Shown here: piece by piece, positions 521-22,483 of the stretch
Numbering within the stretch: position 1 is the stretch's first letter
How the letters are laid out: each line of letters begins with the position of its first letter
DNA from: Deltaproteobacteria bacterium
GTDB taxonomy: Bacteria; Myxococcota; B64-G9
Direction: 5' to 3'
DNA: 49,315 nt
Assembly (NCBI GenBank): GCA_030591445.1
Contig: JAUVBB010000005.1
Span: 1 to 49,315 of the forward strand
The notes under the pieces: generated by a model
What the model was told of the DNA's origin: nothing
Database searches by the model: none
Seen by the model: the letters and a program-made list of their open reading frames with translations, nothing else
Translations under genes and position numbers: made by a program

Positions 521-1885
521 ATGAGGGAGTGGCACATGCGTCGGTTGGTGCTTGCCGGGGTTGCATCGTCCCTGTTGTTGGCAACTGTGCTCGGGGGATG
601 TGATAGTCCTTGCCGGGATAACATCGAGGCAGTGCAGGACCGGGTGTTGCAATACATTCGGGATACCGATCCTACCGTGTTGGGACTGCAGCAATGCAAT
701 ATCAATCCTAGTGCGGCCAATTATGATCAAATTTGTGATTATGCCTTGCGGGCCTTGTCGACGCGGTGGCCTTATTTTGATTGTCAGGCATGTGACTCTT
801 TGGAACTGAGGCTGTGCGGTTGTTATGATGACACGGTTTGGGTGCGCGACGATGCGGGCAAGCCGATCTATCCGGGCCTGGTCTATTGCTTGGCCAGCTA
901 TTACCGGATCCGAGAGCTGTGTTCCTGTGCCCCGGATTTTCCCGGTGATCCCAGTGATTGTTACGACGCGGCCGGTGACCGGGTCTGCGCGCTGCCGCGC
1001 TCGCCGCTGCTGAAGCATCCCACCCAGCAACAGACCGATGTCTGTGACATCCTGGCCGACTCCTTTAGCTGCGCGGCCTACGATGGTGATGCCGACGGGA
1101 TACCCGATCAGTACGACGGGGGCCAGGATCACTCGGCCCAGTATGCGGCCGAAGACGCGGAGTGTCTGGATCAGTTGGGTACGCCCTGTACTGCCGATGC
1201 CCCCTGCCCGCCCGGGCCGGCCATTTGGGAGGCCTGGCGGCTGGCACCGCAGAGCTTGTACGATACCAGTTTCAACAACAACGAGGTCAAGCTGTTCATC
1301 GATGCCGATGGCGCACCTGATGACATTGACGGCGACGGGGTTTCCGATTCTTGTGACAATTGCCCCAATTTGGCCAACGGTTTTGATTGCGATCTAAGAG
1401 TCCAGGGCCAAAAGGTCAACGAACTACGCTGCGACCTCAACGGCGACTCGGTCATCACCCGGGTGTGCTGGGGCTCGGACGGCTTCCAAGATAGTTGGCG
1501 GGCACAAACGGCGGTCCTTTGCCAAAATGGTTTGCCGGCCCTGACCGAGACCTTTATGGGCGAGCAGCTCGACACCGACGACGACGGTCTGGGCGACGTC
1601 TGCGACAGCGATGTCGACAATGATGGCATTGGCAACGCGACCGACAACTGCCTCCACCTGGCCAATACCGATCAGCTCAACAGCGATGCCAACAACGAAG
1701 TCGGCGCGGATGCTTACGGCGACGCCTGCGATCCGGATGACGATGGTGATGGCGTCTGCGATCCGGGTTTTGCCAGCGAAGCCCACAGCCCGTGTAGCGG
1801 CACGGACAACTGTCCCTTGGCCTACAATCCCAGCCAGCTCGACAGCGACGGTGATGGGGTGGGCAACTCCTGCGACCCCGACTAA
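521..1885 (+). CDS. Secreted lipoprotein with thrombospondin type-3 (TSP3) calcium-binding repeats
   Basis: Signal peptide/lipobox 'LLLATVLGGC' (alternative start at 536), then DxDxDGxxDxxDNCP repeats. Confidence 0.85.
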   Translation: MREWHMRRLVLAGVASSLLLATVLGGCDSPCRDNIEAVQDRVLQYIRDTDPTVLGLQQCNINPSAANYDQICDYALRALSTRWPYFDCQACDSLELRLCGCYDDTVWVRDDAGKPIYPGLVYCLASYYRIRELCSCAPDFPGDPSDCYDAAGDRVCALPRSPLLKHPTQQQTDVCDILADSFSCAAYDGDADGIPDQYDGGQDHSAQYAAEDAECLDQLGTPCTADAPCPPGPAIWEAWRLAPQSLYDTSFNNNEVKLFIDADGAPDDIDGDGVSDSCDNCPNLANGFDCDLRVQGQKVNELRCDLNGDSVITRVCWGSDGFQDSWRAQTAVLCQNGLPALTETFMGEQLDTDDDGLGDVCDSDVDNDGIGNATDNCLHLANTDQLNSDANNEVGADAYGDACDPDDDGDGVCDPGFASEAHSPCSGTDNCPLAYNPSQLDSDGDGVGNSCDPD

Positions 1886-8078: not shown

Positions 8079-8107
8079 TTGACATGCCCCTTGCCAAGCC
8101 GTAGTTT
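8079..8107 (+). promoter_or_regulatory. Candidate sigma70-type promoter for the 8137-16680 operon
   Basis: TTGACA (8079-8084), 17 bp, TAGTTT (8102-8107), followed by AGGAGG RBS and ATG 8137. The -10 match is weak. Confidence 0.45.
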
Positions 8108-8136: not shown

Positions 8137-10587
8137 ATGAAGACACAGAAAGCGAGTTGGCAATGGAGGTGGTCACTAGTGATTTTGCTGGTGACAATCG
8201 GGCCGTCCTGCGCCGACCGCAGCTACATGAGCACGGATGCCGGAACCAACGACGGCGACGGCCAGACCGGCAACGGCGAGACGGTCACCATTTACGCTCT
8301 CCAAAATGAAGAGGAAGCCAACCACCCCGCCTCGGGAGAGGCCGTCCAGGTTACCGGAGTGGTGGTCACCAGCCCCATGTACAAGGGTCATCCCGAATCC
8401 CTCGAAGCAGACAGTTTCTATGTCTCGGAGCTTGCCGGCGGACCTTACTCCGGCATTCTGATTCTGGGCAACAAAGTCGACGAGCTGCCGGCCCTGGTGA
8501 CCGGCGATAAGGTGGACATCTACGGAACCCTCTTTGAAGATGACAAGTCACCCTCTTTCGGCAACGGCGTCATCGAGGCTTTCCTGATCAAGCACACCGG
8601 CACCGCCGCGCTTCCCGAGCCAGAAATCGTCAGCGCGGCGGCAGTCACTACCGCTGGACCCGACGCCGAGCGCTATGAAGGTTGCCTGGTGAGTCTGACC
8701 CAGGTGATGGTATCCAACCCGGACGCCGGCCATGGAGATTTCGCGGTCAGCGGCGAGGAAGCGGATTCGGCCTTGCTGGTATCACCAAAATTCGCGGCCC
8801 ACTACAGCTACCACCCCACGGCCGACGATGCCTTTTCCCGCCTGAGTGGCGTACTGGAGTTTGCCTTTTCCGAATCACGGCTACAGCCCCGATCTTGCGC
8901 CGATCTGATTGACGACAGCGGGCAGGCGGCCTGCGACCAATGTCCCGGCGCTGAAGTACCGGTATCCATTGCCCAGCTGCAAAACCAGGCAGAACCCGCC
9001 TACGTCCCTCGCGGTTGCGAAATCAGTTTGCAGGGCGCGGTGGTTATCAGCCCGATGTTTTCCGTTAGCAGCTTCTACGTACAAGATCCGGCCGGCGGCC
9101 CCTGGAGCGGCGTTTTGGTAGTGACTCCGGCAGACGATGCCGATGCAGTCGAAATCGGCGACGAAGTTAATCTGCGCGGCGTGGTCGAGGAAGTCTCCGA
9201 AAAGACCCGGTTGATCGCGTCAGTGCTCAGTCTCAGCGGAGCACAGATTAGCCTACCCCAGCCCACCGTGCTTAGCCTCGCCCAAATACAAAGCGATGAC
9301 CCAAGCGCTGACTCCTTCGAAAGCACCCTGGTACGGGTCACCGAGGTGGCGGTTACCGAGGTTATCCAAACCGATGCCCAAGGCTTGGATCAAGGTGATT
9401 TCGTGGTCGCCTCCGCGCAAGCACCGCAGGCAAGTCTGGTGGTCGGCTGGGCATTTACCCACCCCTACGCTTGTCCCGCCGGTTATGAAAATATCTGCCA
9501 AAGCGATCGCCGCCAAGGCGGAGACTGTTTCAGCGAAATCACGGGCGTGTTGGATTTCTCGCCAGACCATTATCGACTCCAGCCGCGCCAAGAAAGTGAT
9601 CTGGTGATTGCTGAACCCGATCCGGATGATCAGGACTGTGACGGCATCGGCAACGCCAGTGACAACTGCCCCGAGGACTTCAACCCGGATCAGCAGAACG
9701 AAGACGACCAGGACTCGGTAGGCTCGGCCTGTGATAACTGTCCCCAACATGACAACCAAGCGCAGGCCGATATCGATCAGGATGGCATCGGCGACGCCTG
9801 CGACAACTGCCCGGAACTTATCAATCCCGACCAGCAAGACGGTGACCACGACGGCCTGGGTGACTCCTGCGACCCGGATATTGATGGCGACAAGATCGAT
9901 GACGAAGACGACAATTGCCCGCGGGACGCAAACCCCGATCAGCTCGATACCGACCAGGATGAGCATGGCGATTTCTGCGACAACTGCCCCGAGGACGCCA
10001 ACTCCGATCAGGCCGACCTCGACGGCGACGGCATCGGCGATGTTTGTGAACAGTTGGAACCACGACTGATTCTGTCGGAACTGCTATACGATCCAGAAAG
10101 TGATGACGATGGCCGGGAGTGGGTGGAAATTTACAACGGCACCAGCGAGACCATCGACCTGGCCAATTACTCCCTGGGCGCCGGTGGATCTACCTATTTG
10201 TACTCAGTTTTACAGCTAAGTGGCCAACTCCAACCAGGCGCCTGCTTTGTGGTTGGCGGCCCCATCTCCGATGCCTTCAACCATTTTCCCAGCTTCGATC
10301 AAGAGCAGGCTTTCGATCCCCCCATGCAAAACTCAGGCTCCAAATCCCCGGCCGACGCCGTCGCCCTGTTTGCCCTGCCCGCCGCCCAAATCCAAGCAAG
10401 CAGCGTCCCCATCGATGCCGTGCTTTATGGCGGGCTCAATGAAAACCAATTGCTAGACCAAAGCGGCCAAGCCGGAACCTCGGTCGGCTATGCCTATGGT
10501 CCCAAAACCCTAGAACGCACCCCCAGCGGCTGGCGCGTCCAAGCCGACCCTTCTCCCAATGACTGCAGTCCTGTGAGTGACCCATGA
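8137..10587 (+). CDS. Lipoprotein with two YhcR/ExeM-type OB-fold domains, TSP3 repeats and a C-terminal lamin-tail domain
   Basis: Lipobox-like 'LVTIGPSCAD'. Two repeats of 'VQVTGVV...FYVSELAGGPYSGILI...GDKVDIYGTL' and 'ISLQGAVV...FYVQDPAGGPWSGVLV...GDEVNLRGVV'. TSP3 'DNCPE..NPDQQ'. LTD 'LILSELLYDPESDDDGREWVEIYNGTSETIDLANYSL'. Confidence 0.85.
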   Translation: MKTQKASWQWRWSLVILLVTIGPSCADRSYMSTDAGTNDGDGQTGNGETVTIYALQNEEEANHPASGEAVQVTGVVVTSPMYKGHPESLEADSFYVSELAGGPYSGILILGNKVDELPALVTGDKVDIYGTLFEDDKSPSFGNGVIEAFLIKHTGTAALPEPEIVSAAAVTTAGPDAERYEGCLVSLTQVMVSNPDAGHGDFAVSGEEADSALLVSPKFAAHYSYHPTADDAFSRLSGVLEFAFSESRLQPRSCADLIDDSGQAACDQCPGAEVPVSIAQLQNQAEPAYVPRGCEISLQGAVVISPMFSVSSFYVQDPAGGPWSGVLVVTPADDADAVEIGDEVNLRGVVEEVSEKTRLIASVLSLSGAQISLPQPTVLSLAQIQSDDPSADSFESTLVRVTEVAVTEVIQTDAQGLDQGDFVVASAQAPQASLVVGWAFTHPYACPAGYENICQSDRRQGGDCFSEITGVLDFSPDHYRLQPRQESDLVIAEPDPDDQDCDGIGNASDNCPEDFNPDQQNEDDQDSVGSACDNCPQHDNQAQADIDQDGIGDACDNCPELINPDQQDGDHDGLGDSCDPDIDGDKIDDEDDNCPRDANPDQLDTDQDEHGDFCDNCPEDANSDQADLDGDGIGDVCEQLEPRLILSELLYDPESDDDGREWVEIYNGTSETIDLANYSLGAGGSTYLYSVLQLSGQLQPGACFVVGGPISDAFNHFPSFDQEQAFDPPMQNSGSKSPADAVALFALPAAQIQASSVPIDAVLYGGLNENQLLDQSGQAGTSVGYAYGPKTLERTPSGWRVQADPSPNDCSPVSDP

Positions 10588-12896
10588 ACTTACCCCGATT
10601 AAATTGGATCCTGGCAACAGCCACGCTTTCGCTGGCCCTACCAGCCTGTGTTGTCGAAACCGAACAACCGGTTCTCGAAGGCCGTACCGTACGTTTTACC
10701 GTGCTCCACACCTCCGACATCCACAGCCGTCTGTTCCCCACCCATATGCAACCCAACAGCCATGATCAGGGCGACGGCCTGTACCTCGAGACTGGCCCCT
10801 ATGGTGGCGCCGAACGGCTGGCGGCTCTCATTCGCCGGGAACGCAACCGCGGCGAGCGCGTGGTGCACCTGGACTCCGGCGACATTTTCCACGGCGGACC
10901 CATCTTCAATTTCGCCGGCGGCGAACCCGAGTTTCGTTGGCTTTCGCTCATGCGGGTCGAGGCCATGGCGGTGGGCAACCACGAACTGGGCGCCGGCGCC
11001 GAAGGGCTGGCGGGTTTGGCCGCTAATTTTGGATCCTTTCCCTTCCTGGCCGCAAATTATATCTTTGCCAACTGGCTCGCGGATGGCGACCCAGCGTTGG
11101 GCCAGCAAGTCCAACCCTACACCATGCTCAATGTCAAAGGACTGCGGGTGGCGGTGATCGGCGTGGGCGACGATTCTTCAGTCCAATCCATCTCTCGCGG
11201 TGGAAATTCCTTCGGCATCACCCCGGTGGAAGCAAACGAGACCGTTCGGGCCTATGTTGAATTTTTAGGATCTTCGGCAGATCTGATTCTAGTGCTCAGT
11301 CACCTGGGTTTGAATGAAGATCGCGAACTGGTCGAAGGGCATGAGCTGACCATGACCGCGGACATGGACGTGCGGGCTTTTCTCGACCGTCCCGTCGATC
11401 CTTGGCAGCAGCGTAAGTGTGAAGCCTGTCGCCCGGGAGAACACAAGTATTGGGTGCCAGGGGTACGCGGTATCGACGCCATTTTGGGCGGACATCTGCA
11501 CGTATTGTTGCGTCCGCCCATGATGCTGACCGACCTTGCCGGCCGCAAGGTCCTGCTCCAACATCCGGGCGCTTTCGCCAAATTCCTAGCCCGGCTGGAT
11601 TTGGCAGTCGCCGTGCCCAACCACAGCTACACCTGCGATACCAGCCAAAGCCCGTCGGTTTGCATGCCGCAGGAGAACCATTTCAGCCGCGGCGTGGTCT
11701 GTCAATCCGACGCCGATTGCCGGCGCGAACGGCTGGCGCCTTTCGGCGCCGAGATCATTGCCCACAGCCAACAAATCTTTCCCGTGGACACTATCTGGTG
11801 CGCCGAGCCTCGGCCCGATCCCTACGACTATGACTACGGTAAAGAATACGAATTCGAGCGCGACGTGGCCGCGCTGGCGGCTTACTGCGGTGAACGCGGT
11901 GACGGGGCCACCCGCAACTTGCTCGAACCTTACCGCATGGCCATGGAATTGAGCCCCGAATTCTTGCTGACCCAGGTGCTGGGCTACGCCCCCAGAATCG
12001 TCCTCCGCCGGGATACGGCCAACGGCGGTGATTCAGCCTTGGGCAACATCGTGGCCACCTCGCTGATGATTCGCAAGCGGGTCGAAGCCGAGTTCGCGGT
12101 CACCAACGCCCTCGGCATTCGCGACAATATCTACCCCGGGCCGGTCGATATCGGAACCATCTTCAACGTTTTCCCTTTCGAGAATACCATCGTGGTCATG
12201 TACCTCAGCGGCCGGGAAATCCAAGAGATGTTCGACTTCCTCACCGAACGCGGTCAAGATCGAGGCTGCCAAAGCCAGGTGCAAATCGCCGGCGCTTCCT
12301 TCGTGATGAACTGCGGACAGGTCAAGCGCAACCGCGCTCGCTATGCCTGTACCACCGCCGAGGATTGCTGCCCTTATCGGCCTGAGATTTGCGCGGCCGA
12401 CTATGAGGGCTCGGCTCGCTGGCAGTGTCTGGACGAAGCCTGTTTCAGCCATCCGGCCGAGGACATTCAAATGGGCACAAAAGCGTTGTTACCGGATGCC
12501 TCATACAAACTGGCCGCCAATGATTACATCGCCCAGGGCGGTTCCGGCTTTTATGTACTGCAGCGTAACACCACCAAGATCTTCACTGGCATCCCCTTAC
12601 AGGACGCGCTGATCGAGCACTTACGTAACTTCCCCAATTGCCGGGAGATCTTGTCGGCAGCTGATTCGGCATCGATTGACCCGCGGGCCATGGCCTATTG
12701 TTCGAAGATCAAACAGGAAGATGGCAAACACCTGATTGAGGTTCGCGCCGGCTGTAGCTGCGGCGATGTTCTCGACGGCAATATAGCCCGCTGCGGCTCC
12801 ACCGACACCCTGCTGACCCAGTTTTGCCGCAACCCGCTCGAGTTTCCCGTCATCATCGGCCAATCGGACCAGAGAATCGGTCGCAAGATCAATTAG
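10584..12896 (+). CDS. UshA-like 5'-nucleotidase/metallophosphoesterase lipoprotein with Cys-rich insertions
   Basis: 'FTVLHTSDIHSRLFP', 'HLDSGDIFHGG', 'AVGNHELGAG', 'GGHLHV'; C-terminal domain 'TNALGIRDNIYPG' and 'NDYIAQGGSGF'; lipobox 'SLALPAC'. Confidence 0.9.
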   Translation: MNLPRLNWILATATLSLALPACVVETEQPVLEGRTVRFTVLHTSDIHSRLFPTHMQPNSHDQGDGLYLETGPYGGAERLAALIRRERNRGERVVHLDSGDIFHGGPIFNFAGGEPEFRWLSLMRVEAMAVGNHELGAGAEGLAGLAANFGSFPFLAANYIFANWLADGDPALGQQVQPYTMLNVKGLRVAVIGVGDDSSVQSISRGGNSFGITPVEANETVRAYVEFLGSSADLILVLSHLGLNEDRELVEGHELTMTADMDVRAFLDRPVDPWQQRKCEACRPGEHKYWVPGVRGIDAILGGHLHVLLRPPMMLTDLAGRKVLLQHPGAFAKFLARLDLAVAVPNHSYTCDTSQSPSVCMPQENHFSRGVVCQSDADCRRERLAPFGAEIIAHSQQIFPVDTIWCAEPRPDPYDYDYGKEYEFERDVAALAAYCGERGDGATRNLLEPYRMAMELSPEFLLTQVLGYAPRIVLRRDTANGGDSALGNIVATSLMIRKRVEAEFAVTNALGIRDNIYPGPVDIGTIFNVFPFENTIVVMYLSGREIQEMFDFLTERGQDRGCQSQVQIAGASFVMNCGQVKRNRARYACTTAEDCCPYRPEICAADYEGSARWQCLDEACFSHPAEDIQMGTKALLPDASYKLAANDYIAQGGSGFYVLQRNTTKIFTGIPLQDALIEHLRNFPNCREILSAADSASIDPRAMAYCSKIKQEDGKHLIEVRAGCSCGDVLDGNIARCGSTDTLLTQFCRNPLEFPVIIGQSDQRIGRKIN

Positions 12897-12906
12897 GAAT
12901 CAAGCC

Positions 12907-14484
12907 ATGCGCAATCACAAATCTTCTTTTTCACGATGGCTACTGACCGGCACCGCGTTTTCATTTTTACTGGCCTCCGGCCCTTGCACCGAGAAGATAA
13001 CCCTGCCCAACAGCCTGTCTGGTTTCAAGGTCACGGTCACCGAAATCAGCGGCGCCATCGGCGGTACTGGCACCTTCGCCAATCCTTTCGACTACCCAGA
13101 CGGGGAGATCAGCTTTACCGTCGATGTGCAAGCCTATGACAATCACGGGCAATGGCTCGACCTGCTCGAAGGAGAAGTAGCGGTCAAGGTAACTTCGGGA
13201 GATTTGCTCTCCCCCACCACCGCCCACATGCAGGCCGGAGAAATCACCGGGCTCGAAGTCAAAGCCCGCCGTTTGATGGGACCGGCCACGGTCTGGATTG
13301 AAGACATCCACCTGGTCGACGACGAACTCATCCAGTCGGAAGGCAGCTTCTTTCAATTACGTCGGCCGATGGGCTCCTGGGCCACCGGCATTTCTCGGCA
13401 GATTCATTTCAAGAAGCCCACCCTAGGTCAGATCCAGCGGGACCCACAACTCGAGGCCGAAACCGACATTTATGAGTCGCCCTTGGCCGGCCGCTTTGTC
13501 GAAATTGACTGCCGGGAAACGGTCACCAGCGGACCCTTCCAGGACGGGTACGGCAAGCTCTTGGTGACCGGCCTCGTCAACGAGGGCTTTTTCGTTACCG
13601 ATCTGGCCGAGCCGGTGTTGGGATTCAACCACCTGTACGTCTACAATTATTCCTTTCCCGAGAACCTGCAACTGGGCGATAGAATCGCTCGTCTTACTGG
13701 CACCAGCCAGGATTTCTCCGGTTGCACCCAAATCAGTTTCCCTTCCTACCATCGGGTAGAAGACGAAGACGGCGACCCTGCGCCCTTCCGCGTGGCGCCC
13801 GACCAAATTGATACCTTGGTGCCGCCGGTGCTCATCACCACGGCGCTGTGTGACGAAAGCAGCAGCAGCAATAAACACCTGTGTGGTCACAGCAAGAGAA
13901 ACTGGTCTTTTGAAGCACTGGAGTCCGGCCGGGTGCGCATCGAAAACTTCCGAACCCCCGATGTCTTGGTCAACTGCGATTTCGACGGCGACGGCCAGGT
14001 GGTCCCGGACTGGATGGACGCGGCCGACCCGGAAGCCATCTGCTCGGTGGCCTGCTTGAAAAGGAATCCGGCCGTTGAATTCGTGGTCGAAGAAATCGTC
14101 ACCTCCCAGGCCGCCCATGCCGAGGTAGTCATCGACCCGGCGGCGCTTTGCCCCTGGGAAGAAGGACAACCCAATGCCACCGCCCACTGCCAGCGAGTGC
14201 GCGTCGGGCCCGAGCAAGTATGCACCGAGCTGACCACCTTACGCGGCTATGGCCAATGGGTGGTTGCCTTGGACGCAGGCACCGGTCCCCTGATCAACGT
14301 GATTAGCCAACAAAACCAACCCGACTACGATCCCGCGGCCCTGGAAAATCTCGGTCGTACATTACCCTATTTGCAAGGCAACCTGCGCCAAGTCCGCGCG
14401 GCGCGGCCCCGATGGATGATATTAGTCGGTGCCCAAACTGCTGACCTCCCACCCTCCTGGCAAGCCCGCAGTCGGCTTCCCTAA
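12907..14484 (+). CDS. Uncharacterised lipoprotein with an OB-like domain
   Basis: Signal peptide + lipobox 'LLASGPC'. Internal 'GRFVEIDCRETVTSGPF...LLVTGLVNEGFFVTDLAEP...LYVYNYSFPENLQLGDRIARLTGTSQDFSGCTQI' resembles the OB-fold repeats of the 8137 protein. Confidence 0.75.
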   Translation: MRNHKSSFSRWLLTGTAFSFLLASGPCTEKITLPNSLSGFKVTVTEISGAIGGTGTFANPFDYPDGEISFTVDVQAYDNHGQWLDLLEGEVAVKVTSGDLLSPTTAHMQAGEITGLEVKARRLMGPATVWIEDIHLVDDELIQSEGSFFQLRRPMGSWATGISRQIHFKKPTLGQIQRDPQLEAETDIYESPLAGRFVEIDCRETVTSGPFQDGYGKLLVTGLVNEGFFVTDLAEPVLGFNHLYVYNYSFPENLQLGDRIARLTGTSQDFSGCTQISFPSYHRVEDEDGDPAPFRVAPDQIDTLVPPVLITTALCDESSSSNKHLCGHSKRNWSFEALESGRVRIENFRTPDVLVNCDFDGDGQVVPDWMDAADPEAICSVACLKRNPAVEFVVEEIVTSQAAHAEVVIDPAALCPWEEGQPNATAHCQRVRVGPEQVCTELTTLRGYGQWVVALDAGTGPLINVISQQNQPDYDPAALENLGRTLPYLQGNLRQVRAARPRWMILVGAQTADLPPSWQARSRLP

Positions 14485-14510
14485 TGCCCGATAACTGGAA
14501 GGAATCCACA

Positions 14511-15995
14511 ATGAACCGCACCTGCATCGCCCTGCTCGCCAGCACCCTACTGCTGGCCTCAACCCAACCGGCCACCGCCGGCGAATTCATGGACACCCGC
14601 CTGAGTTTCGTTCTCTCCGAGAACAACTTCTTCGCCGGCCCGGGCGAGACCCTTGACAACAGCCCCGGCCTCGGCATTGGCGCCGATGATTCCAACACCG
14701 TTTTCTTCGACAACTACGACACCCGCTTTTCCGGCTTCGAGACCCTGAGTCACCTGGCCTTGTACAAAAAAATGCCCAGCTTCTTCGAGGGCCTGACCAC
14801 CGAAGCCGCCCTGGTTCTTTATATTCCCGGGCTTGCTGACTCCGGCTCCTATATTCGACTGATTTATGAATTGGATAACCCGGATTCCAATTTGGAGTTG
14901 ATCCTGTTTCCGGTGAGCGGTGATCGCTTTCGCCTGGGTTATTCCTACCGAATCTCCTGGGGCGGCAACGGTATCTTCCCGGAAAGAGCATCGGTGGTCC
15001 CGGCGGCAAAAATTCAGCTCAATCTTCCCTGGGGCTATGCCTTCCTGGGCGCCAAGACCACCCAGATTCCGCAACCCATCGGCGAGACCCTGCAGTTTGA
15101 ATTGGTCACCAACCACGGTTTGCTAGCCGGTTTGGGCACTGACATCCAGGGTCTGCGAGCAGAAGTCAACGGCGGCTATTTCACCCGCGGCGCCTTTGAC
15201 TTTGACGGGGTACGTGGCCGGGGCATTTACGCCAGCGGTCTTTCCTATCAAATCGGCTACCACCAGGGCATGGAGATCGGAAGTTCCATCGACTTCAAAC
15301 TCTACCAAAATGACCCGAATCGAGAGATCGAATTCTTCAAACCCGAAAGCTACGACGGTGGCTTGTCTTTCGTCGTCAAGCACGAGGGCACCTTTTTGTG
15401 GCATACCCTGATGGACCCCGATCTATTCGGCACCACCACCAACCAGTTTGCCACCGCCTTCGATCTGAACGTCGCGCTGAAGTGGGGCTATTTCCGAACC
15501 CATTTCGATGCCATGGTCCGATCGCTGTCCTTCTTGCTGCACGAGCGCCCGGGATTCACACCCTTCCAGGATTTCCCCCCGGACGCCGAAGTCAATCCTG
15601 AATACTTCCTGGCCCTCGGACTTGATTACCACTTTCCGGCTCTTCATTTGACGCCCGGTATCAAATTCGGCGTCCAGATGCCGGCCACCTACACGGTGGA
15701 GGATTTGAACATGGGCGGGCTGTCCTTCCCTGGCGAACGCACGGTTGTCGTTTACAATGTCGCCACCCAGTCGCCACTACCGGCCGGCGAGGTAGCTCGC
15801 CTGGTCTGGTCGATCAAGGCAAACTGCAAATGGGATATTTCCGAGATGCTGGCCGTTATTGCCGAGGTCTATTATTCTTGGGACGACAATCAAGTCCGCT
15901 TCCTAAGCGACACCTCCGGCATGAACGTAGTCACGGCCGAGTTTATCGACGCCGCCATTCTGGGTATGAATTTAGCCGCCCAAGCACGATTTTAA
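14511..15995 (+). CDS. Predicted outer-membrane beta-barrel/porin-like protein
   Basis: Signal peptide 'MNRTCIALLASTLLLASTQPATAGEF', alternating amphipathic strands, C-terminal aromatic residue (...LAAQARF). In-frame ATG 14511 chosen. Confidence 0.75.
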   Translation: MNRTCIALLASTLLLASTQPATAGEFMDTRLSFVLSENNFFAGPGETLDNSPGLGIGADDSNTVFFDNYDTRFSGFETLSHLALYKKMPSFFEGLTTEAALVLYIPGLADSGSYIRLIYELDNPDSNLELILFPVSGDRFRLGYSYRISWGGNGIFPERASVVPAAKIQLNLPWGYAFLGAKTTQIPQPIGETLQFELVTNHGLLAGLGTDIQGLRAEVNGGYFTRGAFDFDGVRGRGIYASGLSYQIGYHQGMEIGSSIDFKLYQNDPNREIEFFKPESYDGGLSFVVKHEGTFLWHTLMDPDLFGTTTNQFATAFDLNVALKWGYFRTHFDAMVRSLSFLLHERPGFTPFQDFPPDAEVNPEYFLALGLDYHFPALHLTPGIKFGVQMPATYTVEDLNMGGLSFPGERTVVVYNVATQSPLPAGEVARLVWSIKANCKWDISEMLAVIAEVYYSWDDNQVRFLSDTSGMNVVTAEFIDAAILGMNLAAQARF

Positions 15996-16020
15996 TTATT
16001 AAATAGGTTATGCTGGCCCG

Positions 16021-16680
16021 ATGAGGAAATTCTGGGCATGGGTCACGGTGGTACTTGCCCTGCTGGCTGCCTGCGGGTCGGCGGATGAGACCGCTTCTTT
16101 GGCAATTCGGGTCCATTCCCTAAGTGCCGAAGAGCTCCAGCCACGGCGTTTTTTCCCGCATCTGCCCGAGCCGGACCGGGTGCTGTTGCAAATATGGCCA
16201 GCAGAAGACCTGGGGGGAGAACCACTGATCCATCTGGATGAAGACTGGCAAGACCTGCCCCAAGACCCGGTCTCGGGTAAGAAGTATCTGCTGGTGACTG
16301 TTCCTTCCCGGGAAGAGCAAGAGTATTTTCTGCGCTTGGCCAGCCGCGTACGCGATGGCCGCGGTGTGCTGCAAACCGACGAGTGCGGCGCCATCGGCCA
16401 TATCCGCACCAAGGTCGGCGCCAAGACCCTGGTAGAAATGGTCACCCACCCAGGCCCCTGCGCCACCCTATTTTGCCAAAGCGACTCCGACTGCCGCGGC
16501 GAAGAGCGCTACTGTCTTTCTTTCGAGTGCCAGGAAGCAAGTCCCTGCCATGCCTGCCCGCTGGGCGCCTACTGTGATCCGGACAGCCAATGTGCCGGCT
16601 CCTGCGCAGCAGATGACGACTGCGCCGACAGCTTCGGCTGCTGCGGTGAAATCTGTTCGATTCATTGCTTCGGACGATAG
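16021..16680 (+). CDS. Cys-rich lipoprotein
   Basis: Lipobox 'ALLAACGS'; C-terminal Cys-rich tail 'CQSDSDCRGEERYCLSFECQEASPCHACPLGAYCDPDSQCAGSCAADDDCADSFGCCGEIC'. Confidence 0.8.
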   Translation: MRKFWAWVTVVLALLAACGSADETASLAIRVHSLSAEELQPRRFFPHLPEPDRVLLQIWPAEDLGGEPLIHLDEDWQDLPQDPVSGKKYLLVTVPSREEQEYFLRLASRVRDGRGVLQTDECGAIGHIRTKVGAKTLVEMVTHPGPCATLFCQSDSDCRGEERYCLSFECQEASPCHACPLGAYCDPDSQCAGSCAADDDCADSFGCCGEICSIHCFGR

Positions 16681-16681
16681 A

Positions 16682-19243
16682 CTAATAGCGATCCATAAAA
16701 TGGAGCAGGCGGTGGGTGAAGGACTCTAGCAGGAGGATGCCACCGTCGGCGGCGAGTAGTTCGTCTACCAGTAACTCACCTAGCCTGACGGCCATGCGCT
16801 CGGCGCCGCGCTGGTGATAGGCAATGAATACTTCGCGGAAGGGTGCGGCCGGGCGGGCCAAGGGGTTTTCCAGCAAGCGCTGGGTGGAGTCTTCCACATA
16901 GGGCTGTAACTTGGCGGCCAGCTGATTGCGAAAAGTGGTCAATTGCCAGCTGACACTTTGTAACAACGTGGCCAGCTCTTCGGCCGGCATTTGGCCCTGG
17001 TCGAGGAGGGCCAGGGCCTGGTCATCGCCCACAGAGCTCATGCCACTGAGCTGGGCATGGCGCAGCATCATTGCGAAAATACGGCCGGCGTCAGCCAGCT
17101 GCTCCCGGTCCAGGATCTGCAAGTCTTGACCGATCCCTTCTTCCAGTATCCGATCCAACTCTTGGACCCGCTTCCGATCATCGGCAAAGGTCTGTAAGTG
17201 ATCGGCCACGGAGGGTCGCGCTTGATCATTGGCCTTGAAAAACAGGCCCTGGAGTTGGCGACGCGCGGACAACATTTCTTGTCCGGCCACGAGCAATTCG
17301 TTGAAATTCCGGCCTGAGCTGGATGCAGACTTCTGCTGACTGGCACCCTGTTGGTACAAAGATCGGTAGACCTCCAGCAAGTGCAAGAGCACGGGGACCG
17401 CCCGGTTGCTGCAGCCCGGAAAACCGGCCAACTTGAGTAGAGTTCCTTCCTCGAAATAAGTTGCGGGCAAGCGCGCCAGCCAGGCTACGTCGTCTTCTTT
17501 CGCGCTGGGAGCATGCCGGCGCAGGCGGGTTAGAATCTCGCGAATATCGGGCACTCGCTCGCGTTCCGCCTGGGCGGGCAAGGCAGCCAAACTCTCTGGG
17601 CAAGCCAAAGAATACAACTCGGTCACGTCGCCGCTCAACCAGTAGCGAAGCACGCTCTCGACCGCCAGCAAGCTCTCCCGGCCGCCACCTGACAAAACCC
17701 GCTCTTTGAGATCGTGCAAATAGGAACCTTGGCGATCTTCCGGATCGAGGGCCAGCAGATGGGCGCGCATGGTCGGCGCTCCCAAGTGAAAGGGCGATAG
17801 TGGGGTCAATCGCACCACGGTACGCAGCAAATGGATCATCTCCCCGGGCCAAGATCGCGACAACATATCAACCAGGGCCTGCCCCACCGTAAGCAGGGGC
17901 TCGCCCGATCCATCTTGTTGGTTCTGTGGGCCTTCGTCCCGCAGCCATACTTCTTCCAAGGAGAACCCGACCACCAGCGGCAAAAGCATTTTTTCAGCCA
18001 CGTCCGGATGCGCGTTCGATACCCCCAAGCGCCAGCTTACGTCTTCGCGGCTGACCGGCGCGCCCTGGATGGGCCCGGTGCGCAAGCGCTGGGCTTCTGC
18101 TACGGTTCGAGCCACCACTGAAATATCCGAAGATCCGAGCAAACGCTGCAAGATCTCGGCGGCGACTGCGCGTAGATCTTCCAAAGCCGGTTCGATTTCC
18201 CCTCGGCCGGCTTCTTGCTGCAGTCGGTCCATGACCGCATTGGCTACGGTATCCAAGGCCGTAACCAGGCCCGCTTCGCCGCCGGCAGCGACAATGGCGG
18301 GAACCCGATTGCGCAACACCGAAGCCATCAACCGAAACAAACGCAGATCACGGGTTTGACCAATCCAGTCGGCAAAACCCTCGCACAGACATCTCAAGGA
18401 TGCAGATTCAGGCGCTTGGGAAACAAATTTTTGGTTCAACTTGGCAAACCAGGTCTCCCAAACCTGCTCTCGCTCTTGGGCACGACGGTAGGCCGCCAAC
18501 TCGAGCAAGACATCGATCACCGGTCGCTCGGTACTGGCCAAGTCTGCCATCAGATCGTGCAGCCAATCCAGATCCGTTTGCAGCTGCTCTTTGCGAACAT
18601 CCGCCAACAAGGGCAGTTCAAAAAGATCGGCCTCGCAGCCTTGGTCCCAACGACCGTCATAGACCGGTTCGGCTTCGATGCGCCACTGTTGCATTCTCAA
18701 CGCCATCCGCGTGGTGTCCAGCAACATGGCGGACCAACTAGCGGCCGGGCAGCCATCTTCTCCGATCAAGAGAATCTGCCGGCCAAAATCCAACAGCGCC
18801 GGCAGCAAGTGATCAAATTCGCGCAGCCCGTCTCCCATTTGCACCATTTCCGCAAGCAAGGTCTCCAGACATTCGGTGGCCGCTTCCGGAGTATTCTCGG
18901 GACCTTCGCGCATAATCTCTTCGACGATCGCCGCAAACAATCCCTCGGTCAGGGTGGCAGACTGCACGCGCAGCGAGAGACTGGGGGCCTGCCCCATTCC
19001 CTGCAAACCAGCCTTTCCTAAAACCTGCAAGGCATCGACGGAGCGCAGCAAGATGGCGGGATAGGCACTGTAGAATGATTCAATCGCCCGCAACAAAACC
19101 GGCCAGGAGCGCTTTTCGGCAGACAGCTCTCGATCCAGCGCATTGGATTCGTACAAGACCGAGGCGGAAGGATTGTGTACCCTTACCGTGGCCTCGATGC
19201 GGCCACCGCTTTGGCTTGGGTTATGGTTCGCCTCGCTCATCAC
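16682..19243 (-). CDS. Uncharacterised 853-aa, probably alpha-helical cytoplasmic protein
   Basis: Long ORF with no signal peptide or TM. Its start overlaps the pheT stop by 4 nt (translational coupling). No recognised domain. Confidence 0.8.
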   Translation of the reverse strand: MMSEANHNPSQSGGRIEATVRVHNPSASVLYESNALDRELSAEKRSWPVLLRAIESFYSAYPAILLRSVDALQVLGKAGLQGMGQAPSLSLRVQSATLTEGLFAAIVEEIMREGPENTPEAATECLETLLAEMVQMGDGLREFDHLLPALLDFGRQILLIGEDGCPAASWSAMLLDTTRMALRMQQWRIEAEPVYDGRWDQGCEADLFELPLLADVRKEQLQTDLDWLHDLMADLASTERPVIDVLLELAAYRRAQEREQVWETWFAKLNQKFVSQAPESASLRCLCEGFADWIGQTRDLRLFRLMASVLRNRVPAIVAAGGEAGLVTALDTVANAVMDRLQQEAGRGEIEPALEDLRAVAAEILQRLLGSSDISVVARTVAEAQRLRTGPIQGAPVSREDVSWRLGVSNAHPDVAEKMLLPLVVGFSLEEVWLRDEGPQNQQDGSGEPLLTVGQALVDMLSRSWPGEMIHLLRTVVRLTPLSPFHLGAPTMRAHLLALDPEDRQGSYLHDLKERVLSGGGRESLLAVESVLRYWLSGDVTELYSLACPESLAALPAQAERERVPDIREILTRLRRHAPSAKEDDVAWLARLPATYFEEGTLLKLAGFPGCSNRAVPVLLHLLEVYRSLYQQGASQQKSASSSGRNFNELLVAGQEMLSARRQLQGLFFKANDQARPSVADHLQTFADDRKRVQELDRILEEGIGQDLQILDREQLADAGRIFAMMLRHAQLSGMSSVGDDQALALLDQGQMPAEELATLLQSVSWQLTTFRNQLAAKLQPYVEDSTQRLLENPLARPAAPFREVFIAYHQRGAERMAVRLGELLVDELLAADGGILLLESFTHRLLHFMDRY

Positions 19244-20925
19244 AATTCACCACCTAGCAGAGCCCCCACATTCATTTCCCAGGCCACCACCGGCACCGTG
19301 ATTTCCCAGCGTTCGAGCACCTCGGGGGCCAGCTCGCCCAAAACCCCGATCGGCTCACCTTTGCTTCCCAGCACCCGAGCCATGCGGCCGGGCAAGAAGG
19401 AAGCGTGCTTATCCTCGCGTAAATGCAACTCTTCGTTCAATTGGAAAAACAAGAAGTCGATATCGGTGTGAATCTCCGACAAGTTGGCTTCGCGGTGAGC
19501 CACCATCACGGCCAGGTGCAGTTCCGTTCGAGAACCATGGGCAGCCTGCGGATCGAAAACCGCCACCTCGCCGACTTCGAAGATTCGATGCGGATAGGCG
19601 GCGGTAGCCGAATGGGTCTCCACTTTCAACAGCGAAGGCAAAACCGCGTTGCGCAAAACCGCGTGGTTTTCGTTGACCTGGTTCGAAATCTCGACCAGCT
19701 TGGTATCGGCCATATTCATCCGGTCTGCCACCTGGGCGCGGGAAACCAGGATATTGGAAATAATTTCCTCGTAGCCCAGGCCGACCATGTGATCGCGAAC
19801 CTTGTCTTCCAGCACGCTCAAGGCATCGGAGCTACCCGGGCTGAAATCCTGGGGCATTTTGGGCGAAAAAGAACCGTAGCCGCGCGAGATGGCATAGTCT
19901 TCCACCGCATCCACGGCATGCAAATAGTCAAGGCGCGTGGGCGGCGGATGTACCTCAAGGACTTGCCCGTTCACCACCACATCACAGCCATATTGTTCCA
20001 GGCCGTTGGCCACCTCCGTCGGCGTGCACTCGACTCCGATCAAACGGCTGAATTCATCGGCGGAAACTTGCAGGGTGCGATCCAGTTGCAACGGCGTGGT
20101 AAGCTCGCGCCCCAAGGGCGTGTCATACGGATACCGGGTCAGCACCCGGGAGATAATTCCGCCCCGGTCGGCCAAATCACAGGCCATGATATTGAGCGCC
20201 AGCACCAGAGAGAAAATATCGGTACCGGTTGCCTCCACAAATAAATCCGAGTCACCCGGCTGCACCTCGCCTACTTCCCGGGAGTTGATGATCGGCGGCA
20301 TGGACAAAGTCAGGCCGGCCTCATCCACCAGCAAGGGCACCTGCGCTTTGCCGGCCAGGATGGCCTGGTACTCCACGCCTTTCGGGTGTCTCTTCAGAAT
20401 CTGCGACAGCAACATGGGTTCTTCCATGCCCAGCGGAACATAGCTGTGGCTCTCGGGATCCTGGGCCCGGTAGTGAATGGGAAAGGAAATTTTGTCCAGA
20501 CGATAGACGCCAATCGCCAGATCACGCCGGTGGTGGCCAAAGTTTTCGGCCAGCTTCTCCTGGGTCTGTATGATCTGTTGCAAACAGGTCTCGGTCACGT
20601 TCAGTCCGCGCACCATAAAGGCGCCCACGTAGGGTCGCAACTCGCGCATGGCAGCCTGAACCTCGATGGAGCCTTCGGCCTCGCCCTCGAAAAAGCGATA
20701 GTGCCGGCGCCGGCCCTGGACACAGCGCAACTGACGGGCAATCCCAGCGGCCGTCCACAGGTCGGGCCGATTGGTATCGTTCAACTCCACCCGGTAACGG
20801 CCTTCCTCGTCCAAGCCCTTGAATTCGGCCTTGGCCAAAGCCAGCTGTTCCACCAGTTTTTCCTGGTCAAGTTCTTCGCCCAACAGTTCCGCGAAATCAT
20901 CCGGATTGACAAAAATAGTCGGCAT
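19240..20925 (-). CDS. pheT: Phenylalanyl-tRNA synthetase beta subunit, archaeal/eukaryotic type
   Basis: 561 aa (bacterial PheT is about 800 aa). 'MPTIFVNPDDFAELLGEELDQEKL...VELNDTNRPDLWTAAGIARQLR' matches the archaeal-type N-terminus. Adjacent to pheS. Confidence 0.9.
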   Translation of the reverse strand: MPTIFVNPDDFAELLGEELDQEKLVEQLALAKAEFKGLDEEGRYRVELNDTNRPDLWTAAGIARQLRCVQGRRRHYRFFEGEAEGSIEVQAAMRELRPYVGAFMVRGLNVTETCLQQIIQTQEKLAENFGHHRRDLAIGVYRLDKISFPIHYRAQDPESHSYVPLGMEEPMLLSQILKRHPKGVEYQAILAGKAQVPLLVDEAGLTLSMPPIINSREVGEVQPGDSDLFVEATGTDIFSLVLALNIMACDLADRGGIISRVLTRYPYDTPLGRELTTPLQLDRTLQVSADEFSRLIGVECTPTEVANGLEQYGCDVVVNGQVLEVHPPPTRLDYLHAVDAVEDYAISRGYGSFSPKMPQDFSPGSSDALSVLEDKVRDHMVGLGYEEIISNILVSRAQVADRMNMADTKLVEISNQVNENHAVLRNAVLPSLLKVETHSATAAYPHRIFEVGEVAVFDPQAAHGSRTELHLAVMVAHREANLSEIHTDIDFLFFQLNEELHLREDKHASFLPGRMARVLGSKGEPIGVLGELAPEVLERWEITVPVVAWEMNVGALLGGEL

Positions 20926-20929
20926 CGGC

Positions 20930-22483
20930 TCAGTCCCTCATACGAATGTTGGTCGCGCGAACCTTGCCCAGATCCGAAGAGAACAGATCGCGGATATCGT
21001 CAATGCCCAAGGCCATCATGGCCATCCGATCCAAGCCCAAGCCCCAGGCAATCACCGGCACCTCCACCCCCTGGGCCCAAGTCAATTCGGGGCGAAAAAT
21101 ACCGGCACCGCCCAGTTCCATCCAACCCAGATCCGGGTGCTTGACGTGTATTTCCACCGATGGCTCGGTAAACGGAAAATAGGCCGGGGCAAATACAACC
21201 TCGGTCGCCTTGGCTACCTGCTCGGCAAACAAGCGCAAGAGGCCCAGCAAAGTGACGAAGTCAATGTCGTCACCCAGGACGATGCCCTCGCACTGGTAAA
21301 AGTCGGCCGCGTGGGTGGCATCTACCTCGTCGGGGCGAAAACAGCGGGCAATGCCGAAATACTTACCCGGCACCTTGGCCTGTCTCAGTTTGCGGGCGCT
21401 CAACACCGTTCCCTGGCTACGCAGCAGCAAACGGCGGCTGCTATCGTGATTGAAATCATACCCCCAACCACGGCTACCGGTCTCGCCGCCCTGGGCATGG
21501 GCCGCCGCCACCCGCTCGGCAGTTTCTTGCTCGATGGCGGCAACGTGGGTCGGCTCCTTGACCGAATACACATCGTGGATGTCGCGAGCAGCGTGAAACT
21601 GGGGCATAAACAAAGCATCCATCAGCCAGAACTCGCTCTCGACCAGGCCCCCGCGCATCTCCTCGAAGCCGAGCCCAATCAGTTTGCGGCGTACAAAATC
21701 AAGAAACTCCCGGTAAGGATTGCGCCTACCGGCAACGCGGCGCGGCGGGCGAATGCTAAGATTGTAGGGACGAAAGGTCTTGCCCCGCCAACTACCGTCA
21801 GCCAGCATTTCCGGGCTAAGACGATTAATCTCGTCACTGCTACGCCCCGCCTTGCGGGCCGCCGCGCGAACTTGGCAACCCAGTTCAGTAAAACCTAGCT
21901 CCCGCGTACTTTCGCTGGCAATGCGAAACACCCCTTTCGATTTGCCCCGCTTGCGGCTAGCACCAGCCACCAGTGCCTGTTCCGCATCCGAAAGCAAATC
22001 AAACGACAAGCGGCCTACCTCCTCGACCCTTTTGATGAGACGCGGCAAAGCCTCGATAGGCTCCAGATCGGCCCCATCAGCCAAACGCACACTGCCCGCA
22101 CCGGCATCTTCCAGCACCCCAGCTTTTTTCAAAGCCCCCAGCGCCTGGCCCACTTCCTTCTGTTCGGCCCCCTCCATGCTGAGCAGTTGCTTGATCCCAA
22201 CCGAATCCTGGCCGCGCACCGCTTCGACCAGCCGCTGCTCCGGCGTCCCCTTCCGGTATTTTTGCCCCAACTCCCCCAACTCCACCCACTGGCGCTCAAC
22301 CGTGCCCGTTACTTCCATACACTCTTTGGCTCGCTGCCACTCAATCACGGTTCTGACCTGAGCCTCGGTCGTCACTTCCGCCGCCACAATCTCGGCATCG
22401 GTAAAAGTGTCCCTATCAGCCAGCAGCTCATAGATTTTAATTTCGAGCGGATGCAAAGTCGCGGCAATTTCTTCGGCTTTCAT
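20930..22483 (-). CDS. pheS: Phenylalanyl-tRNA synthetase alpha subunit, archaeal/eukaryotic type with N-terminal winged-helix extension
   Basis: 'NPYREFLDFVRRKLIGLGFEEMRGGLVESEFWLMDALFMPQFHAARDIHDVY' and 'WMELGGAGIFRPELTWAQGVEVPVIAWGLGLDRMAMMALGIDDIRDLFSSDL'. Confidence 0.92.
   Translation of the reverse strand: MKAEEIAATLHPLEIKIYELLADRDTFTDAEIVAAEVTTEAQVRTVIEWQRAKECMEVTGTVERQWVELGELGQKYRKGTPEQRLVEAVRGQDSVGIKQLLSMEGAEQKEVGQALGALKKAGVLEDAGAGSVRLADGADLEPIEALPRLIKRVEEVGRLSFDLLSDAEQALVAGASRKRGKSKGVFRIASESTRELGFTELGCQVRAAARKAGRSSDEINRLSPEMLADGSWRGKTFRPYNLSIRPPRRVAGRRNPYREFLDFVRRKLIGLGFEEMRGGLVESEFWLMDALFMPQFHAARDIHDVYSVKEPTHVAAIEQETAERVAAAHAQGGETGSRGWGYDFNHDSSRRLLLRSQGTVLSARKLRQAKVPGKYFGIARCFRPDEVDATHAADFYQCEGIVLGDDIDFVTLLGLLRLFAEQVAKATEVVFAPAYFPFTEPSVEIHVKHPDLGWMELGGAGIFRPELTWAQGVEVPVIAWGLGLDRMAMMALGIDDIRDLFSSDLGKVRATNIRMRD

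Follow-up and report, generated by a model that had tools for sequence, protein, structure and literature searches.

Five plus-strand genes, here called A to E, lie in close succession on a 49,315-nucleotide stretch of DNA (hereafter the window), which is one contig of the 6.86 Mb draft genome of a member of the Myxococcota. The genes, the domains of A and a possible upstream promoter are positioned as follows:

8079..8107, plus strand: possible promoter (TTGACA, 17 bp, TAGTTT; the -10 element is weak)
8137..10587, plus strand: gene A, a lipoprotein of 816 aa that combines a pair of ExeM-type OB domains with thrombospondin-3 repeats and a lamin-tail domain
8272..9621, plus strand: tandem OB-domain pair of A (N-terminal part of the NCBIfam model NF033681; PDB profile matches)
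9634..10012, plus strand: thrombospondin type 3 repeats of A (PF02412, five stretches, E 3.5e-13)
10060..10371, plus strand: lamin-tail domain of A (PF00932)
10584..12896, plus strand: gene B, a 5'-nucleotidase-family lipoprotein of 770 aa
12907..14484, plus strand: gene C, a lipoprotein of 525 aa with an N-terminal Ig-like domain and OB domain(s)
14484..15995 (probable start 14514), plus strand: gene D, an outer-membrane beta-barrel
16021..16680, plus strand: gene E, a small Cys-rich lipoprotein; a neighbor rather than a conserved member

The open reading frames and the tiny gaps or overlaps between them, reported in a preliminary description of this DNA, are confirmed, including an ATGA overlap at 10584/10587. 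Signal peptides, as read from the sequence, are present in all five proteins, again as described, and those of A, B, C and E end in a lipobox cysteine (GPSC, LPAC, SGPC and LAAC, respectively). In Myxococcus xanthus, a lysine at position +2 marks most inner-membrane lipoproteins (PMC3222651). Because the lipoboxes of A, B, C and E lack a lysine at +2, these four proteins are likely placed in the outer membrane. The candidate promoter at 8079 was upheld in part: an exact TTGACA is present at 8079-8084, and the best -10 element at a spacing of 17 bp is TAGTTT, which matches at 3 of 6 positions. A promoter scan did not list this site and returned two promoter-like sites in the region versus 3.1 expected, with no excess.

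The proposal that gene A carries ExeM-type OB domains and a lamin-tail domain was borne out, with Pfam recognizing the TSP_3 and LTD domains and NCBIfam the OB part of the ExeM/NucH model. Residues 310-488 of A match this model, as do all ten A orthologues (10/10) in addition to the window copy. For A and its orthologues, the best NF033681 stretches fall at model positions of about 2-218 of 546, which correspond to the OB part and leave out the nuclease part, and the score of A is far below the cut-off of 300. With respect to membership in the ExeM/NucH group, A has the N-terminal OB region and lacks the C-terminal EEP nuclease domain. When the profile of the OB pair is compared with the PDB, it matches the EEP nuclease 9sf8/9sf9 over N-terminal 6-159 (E 2e-7); a further, weak match is to RPA32. 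LTD domains occur at 11 places in the window's genome; the domain is therefore, by itself, weak evidence for nucleic-acid work. The match to the MtsC model stems from the thrombospondin-3 repeats only. Another secreted protein, encoded at 521-1885 (plus strand), likewise carries thrombospondin-3-like repeats and matches MtsC in the repeat portion of that model.

Gene C, previously described as a second OB-like lipoprotein, is indeed OB-related by its profile matches to A, ExeM and 9sf8. The C profile aligns with the second OB domain of A (prob 97, E 6e-11) and with the EEP nuclease 9sf8 (E 0.0014), and five of 24 C members match ExeM/NucH, more weakly than A and in the OB region only. The AlphaFold model of C (pLDDT 88) has an N-terminal beta-sandwich. 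Foldseek matches of C are weak and mostly to Ig-like/beta-sandwich proteins; HIN tandem-OB domains are among them (E about 0.01), which is a hint. Neither Pfam nor NCBIfam has a family for C, and neither detects an EEP nuclease domain in it. The gene is widespread in the phylum (105 of the 156 Myxococcota genomes searched and 45 of 75 genera, Myxococcus included) and is absent, among these genomes, from several families (e.g., f3, f13 and f23).

The assignment of B as a UshA-type 5'-nucleotidase is sound at the level of domains, which are Metallophos (PF00149) and 5_nucleotid_C (PF02872) in Pfam, and the nearest PDB entries are 2z1a, 3ivd, CD73 and UshA. B also matches PRK09558; against the UshA equivalog NF007109 it scores 135.5 bits versus a curated 600, and the cut-off is not reached. 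All seven metal ligands and the catalytic histidine are kept in 21 of 21 sequences (the window and 20 relatives). Asn508, Arg513 and Phe532 are likewise invariant in all 21 and align with the substrate site of CD73, in residues that we take to be the substrate residues of that enzyme. Two substitutions set B apart. Ser654 replaces the aspartate of the GGDG motif throughout the family (21/21), whereas an aspartate is present in solved nucleotidases, CD73 among them, presumably as the ribose contact in the CD73 and UshA structures; the serine suggests an altered substrate specificity of the whole B family. The second substitution is confined to the window. The His-Asp dyad motif GNHEFD is intact in all 20 relatives, and the window's B reads GNHELG, with Gly136 for the aspartate, making it the only one of the 21 sequences without the dyad aspartate. 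This glycine suggests a reduced activity of B in this organism; the loss, within 10584-12896, may reflect decay or a changed chemistry in this genome. Given both substitutions, the substrate of B may not be a 5'-nucleotide, and the window copy may be weak. Two 5'-nucleotidase-family lipoproteins, MXAN2470 and MXAN5361, occur in the outer-membrane fraction of M. xanthus (PMC3222651), with neither tag matched to the B orthologue.

The predicted beta-barrel nature of D is corroborated by its AlphaFold model (pLDDT 81), in which roughly 20 strands form a barrel. D has an AxA signal-peptide site and a C-terminal ARF, as read from the sequence, and combines a beta-barrel with a C-terminal aromatic residue, both general marks of outer-membrane porins. 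Its structural neighbors are the general porins PorB, Occ, AlgE and OmpF (TM-scores of about 0.35-0.5), and among its fold matches in the PDB are AlgE, which exports alginate, and Wzi, which binds carbohydrate; the fold is porin-like and is not that of Omp85 or LptD. The window copy of D has no Pfam or NCBIfam family, PF24653 is matched by just two of 31 D members, and the D profile matched no solved protein in the PDB at the sequence level. The earlier suggestion of nucleoside import through the barrel is a guess, as D resembles general porin folds and nothing nucleoside-specific. D-family barrels are also found without B and C, and D has unlinked paralogues, whose neighbors offer no common substrate clue. 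One D-family barrel, at 11670-13157 of locus L087, ends a riboflavin-biosynthesis run (ribD, ribE, ribBA, ribH and nusB by inspection of the sequence) and is unlinked from B-C.

No nuclease is encoded in the run, as originally stated: Pfam and NCBIfam detect no EEP or TNase domain in A-E, and Pfam detects no Exo_endo_phos. Elsewhere in the window's genome there are three Exo_endo_phos genes and, besides B, two 5_nucleotid_C genes; one of the Exo_endo_phos genes, on another contig, encodes a secreted lipoprotein of 454 aa. Endonuclease_NS was not found in this genome, and no linked secreted Endonuclease_NS was seen in the window's family. With other nuclease genes in the genome, nucleic-acid cutting could be supplied from elsewhere.

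The conservation of the neighborhood was surveyed in 58 relatives searched with C and D, with 40 loci read. B and C are adjacent in 13 Myxococcota families, a majority of those covered. In most of the 13, the proteins share no more than about 22-45% identity with those of the window, and because the adjacency recurs at such low identity, B-C linkage is far above chance. D lies directly after B-C, or one gene later, in nine families; it is elsewhere in the genome in f2, f6 and f15, and no D was found in f12, in which B-C is present. In an independent D-based locus search with a nine-sequence barrel alignment, 64 of 76 loci have the order B-C-D, and in 73 of 76 D is immediately preceded by C; contig ends truncate many of the loci outside these counts. 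Relatives found in this way are Myxococcota, ranging from uncultured members of the family to more distant genera such as Myxococcus, Corallococcus and Archangium. A two-pattern scan, shallow for other phyla, likewise returned Myxococcota-like records only. One B-C-D locus (L127, BNCN01000003.1) is labelled Comamonas sp. KCTC 72670; as it is 46% identical to the query and resembles its Myxococcus neighbors, the record is probably a mislabelled or contaminated assembly. The M. xanthus genes MXAN2659/2660/2661 (outer-membrane barrel, outer-membrane lipoprotein and OMV hydrolase) were considered as D-C-B and are a lead only, with tags not matched to sequences (PMC3222651, PMC9548883).

Conserved synteny in relatives, set beforehand as a check on the proposed five-gene operon, thus extends to B-C and usually D and not to all five genes; the operon gives way to a B-C-(D) core, with A in a few families and E displaced. 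In the window's family A precedes B; f4 and f10 have it there as a protein with OB domains only, and in f16 this OB-only form lies further upstream. In L072 and L074, the thrombospondin-3 repeats and lamin-tail domain are absent from A as read. A is a variable addition to the module, confined to a few families. E was rejected as an operon member. D and E are held apart in L069 and L071 by a pair of HAD hydrolase genes, one of which runs in the opposite direction, and the same two genes come after D in L070; the window has lost them, so E now adjoins D. Three loci have C and D without B, and in two of these (L145 and L146) an A-like lipoprotein gene directly precedes C, the third being L148. 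DsbA-like thioredoxin genes lie upstream of C-D in all three, the L145 protein being a tandem of four DsbA-type repeats.

The flanking minus-strand genes have features of their own. Positions 19240-22483 encode archaeal-type PheRS beta and alpha subunits (pheT_arch at 468 bits, over the cut-off; PRK04172 at 516 bits), which are unusual for a bacterium, and the same archaeal-type PheT adjoins the B-C-D locus in relatives. Positions 16682-19243 encode an 853-aa protein without an NCBIfam match; relatives keep a counterpart of it, 27-41% identical, next to pheT.

With a little better than even confidence, we regard B, C and D as the central part of a scavenging system in the outer membrane of Myxococcota, with extracellular nucleotides or short oligonucleotides as its targets. 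The probable task of this unstudied gene set is to strip nucleotides set free in the cell's surroundings and to take them up. We infer that B, C and D work at the cell surface, perhaps as a physical complex. There, the OB lipoprotein C, in some families together with A, would hold nucleotides or oligonucleotides; B, as an outer-membrane lipoprotein of the UshA/CD73 family, would take off phosphate; and the porin-like barrel D would admit nucleoside and/or phosphate to the periplasm. Nuclease cutting would be left to the organism's other secreted nucleases, or to lysed prey and dead cells. A more specific version, in which B-C-D is a dedicated Myxococcota machine that joins OB capture from lysed prey to a nucleotidase of altered specificity and a barrel unlike characterized nucleoside channels, is tentative and rather unlikely.

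Other explanations of the same loci were weighed. UshA-like enzymes also cleave UDP-sugars, and the match of B to PRK09558, the invariant serine at the GGDG aspartate and the AlgE and Wzi matches of D would all suit a module whose substrate is a different phosphate ester, for instance a nucleotide sugar or a surface phospho-glycan, with D moving the product or exporting a polymer and the OB-like domain of C binding sugar or protein. However, no glycosyltransferase or polysaccharide gene was recognized beside B-C-D in the loci read, and the OB domains match nucleases rather than carbohydrate proteins; we consider this explanation unlikely.

It is also conceivable, if quite improbable, that C and D form a pair for envelope assembly or lipoprotein presentation, in which D is a scaffold or passage that places C, and hence B, outside the outer membrane, and nucleotide work belongs to the cargo enzyme only. 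C-D adjacency is the tightest link among the D-found loci (73/76), and the loci in which C-D occurs without B, two of them with an A-like gene, are all near DsbA-type thioredoxin genes. Yet B-C without a linked D is also common (f2, f6, f12 and f15), so the pairing of D with C is not constant, and the fold of D is porin-like rather than that of Omp85 or LptD. That chance or shared regulation keeps these adjacent secreted proteins together, without a joint task, would fit the variability of A, the position of E clearly outside the unit and the unlinked paralogues of D; the recurrence of the B-C-D order across nine families at low protein identity leaves this reading only a slight chance.

If nucleotide scavenging is the task of B-C-D, the module would explain how predatory and soil bacteria harvest nucleotides and phosphate from prey. 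Its genes are widely conserved, uncharacterized outer-membrane genes that are present in the genetically tractable Myxococcus, and C and D are two protein families without a Pfam or NCBIfam entry.

Like the ExeM/NucH nucleases (NF033681; Shewanella ExeM, PMC6085458), A and C are secreted and have an ExeM-type OB region, and a lamin-tail domain is found in both ExeM and A; unlike them, A and C have no EEP nuclease domain and match the model in its OB part only. B resembles UshA, CD73 and NadN in having both domains, all of the metal ligands and the aligned substrate Asn, Arg and Phe. In contrast to these enzymes, it is a lipoprotein with family-specific Cys inserts and Ser for the GGDG Asp, and it falls below the UshA equivalog cut-off. 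Bacillus YhcR is a multidomain nuclease/nucleotidase with OB-like domains and, like the module, brings together OB-like domains and a nucleotidase in one functional unit; in the module, the domains are on separate proteins, there is no nuclease, the host is diderm and a barrel is added. Degraders of extracellular DNA belong to other phyla, and their loci, in the available part of the published account, include nucleases and are described with no C-D pair (PMC8289736). In that same part, LTD-bearing proteins and secreted nucleotidases serve DNA catabolism, and the module is like these systems in having an LTD-bearing protein together with a secreted nucleotidase.
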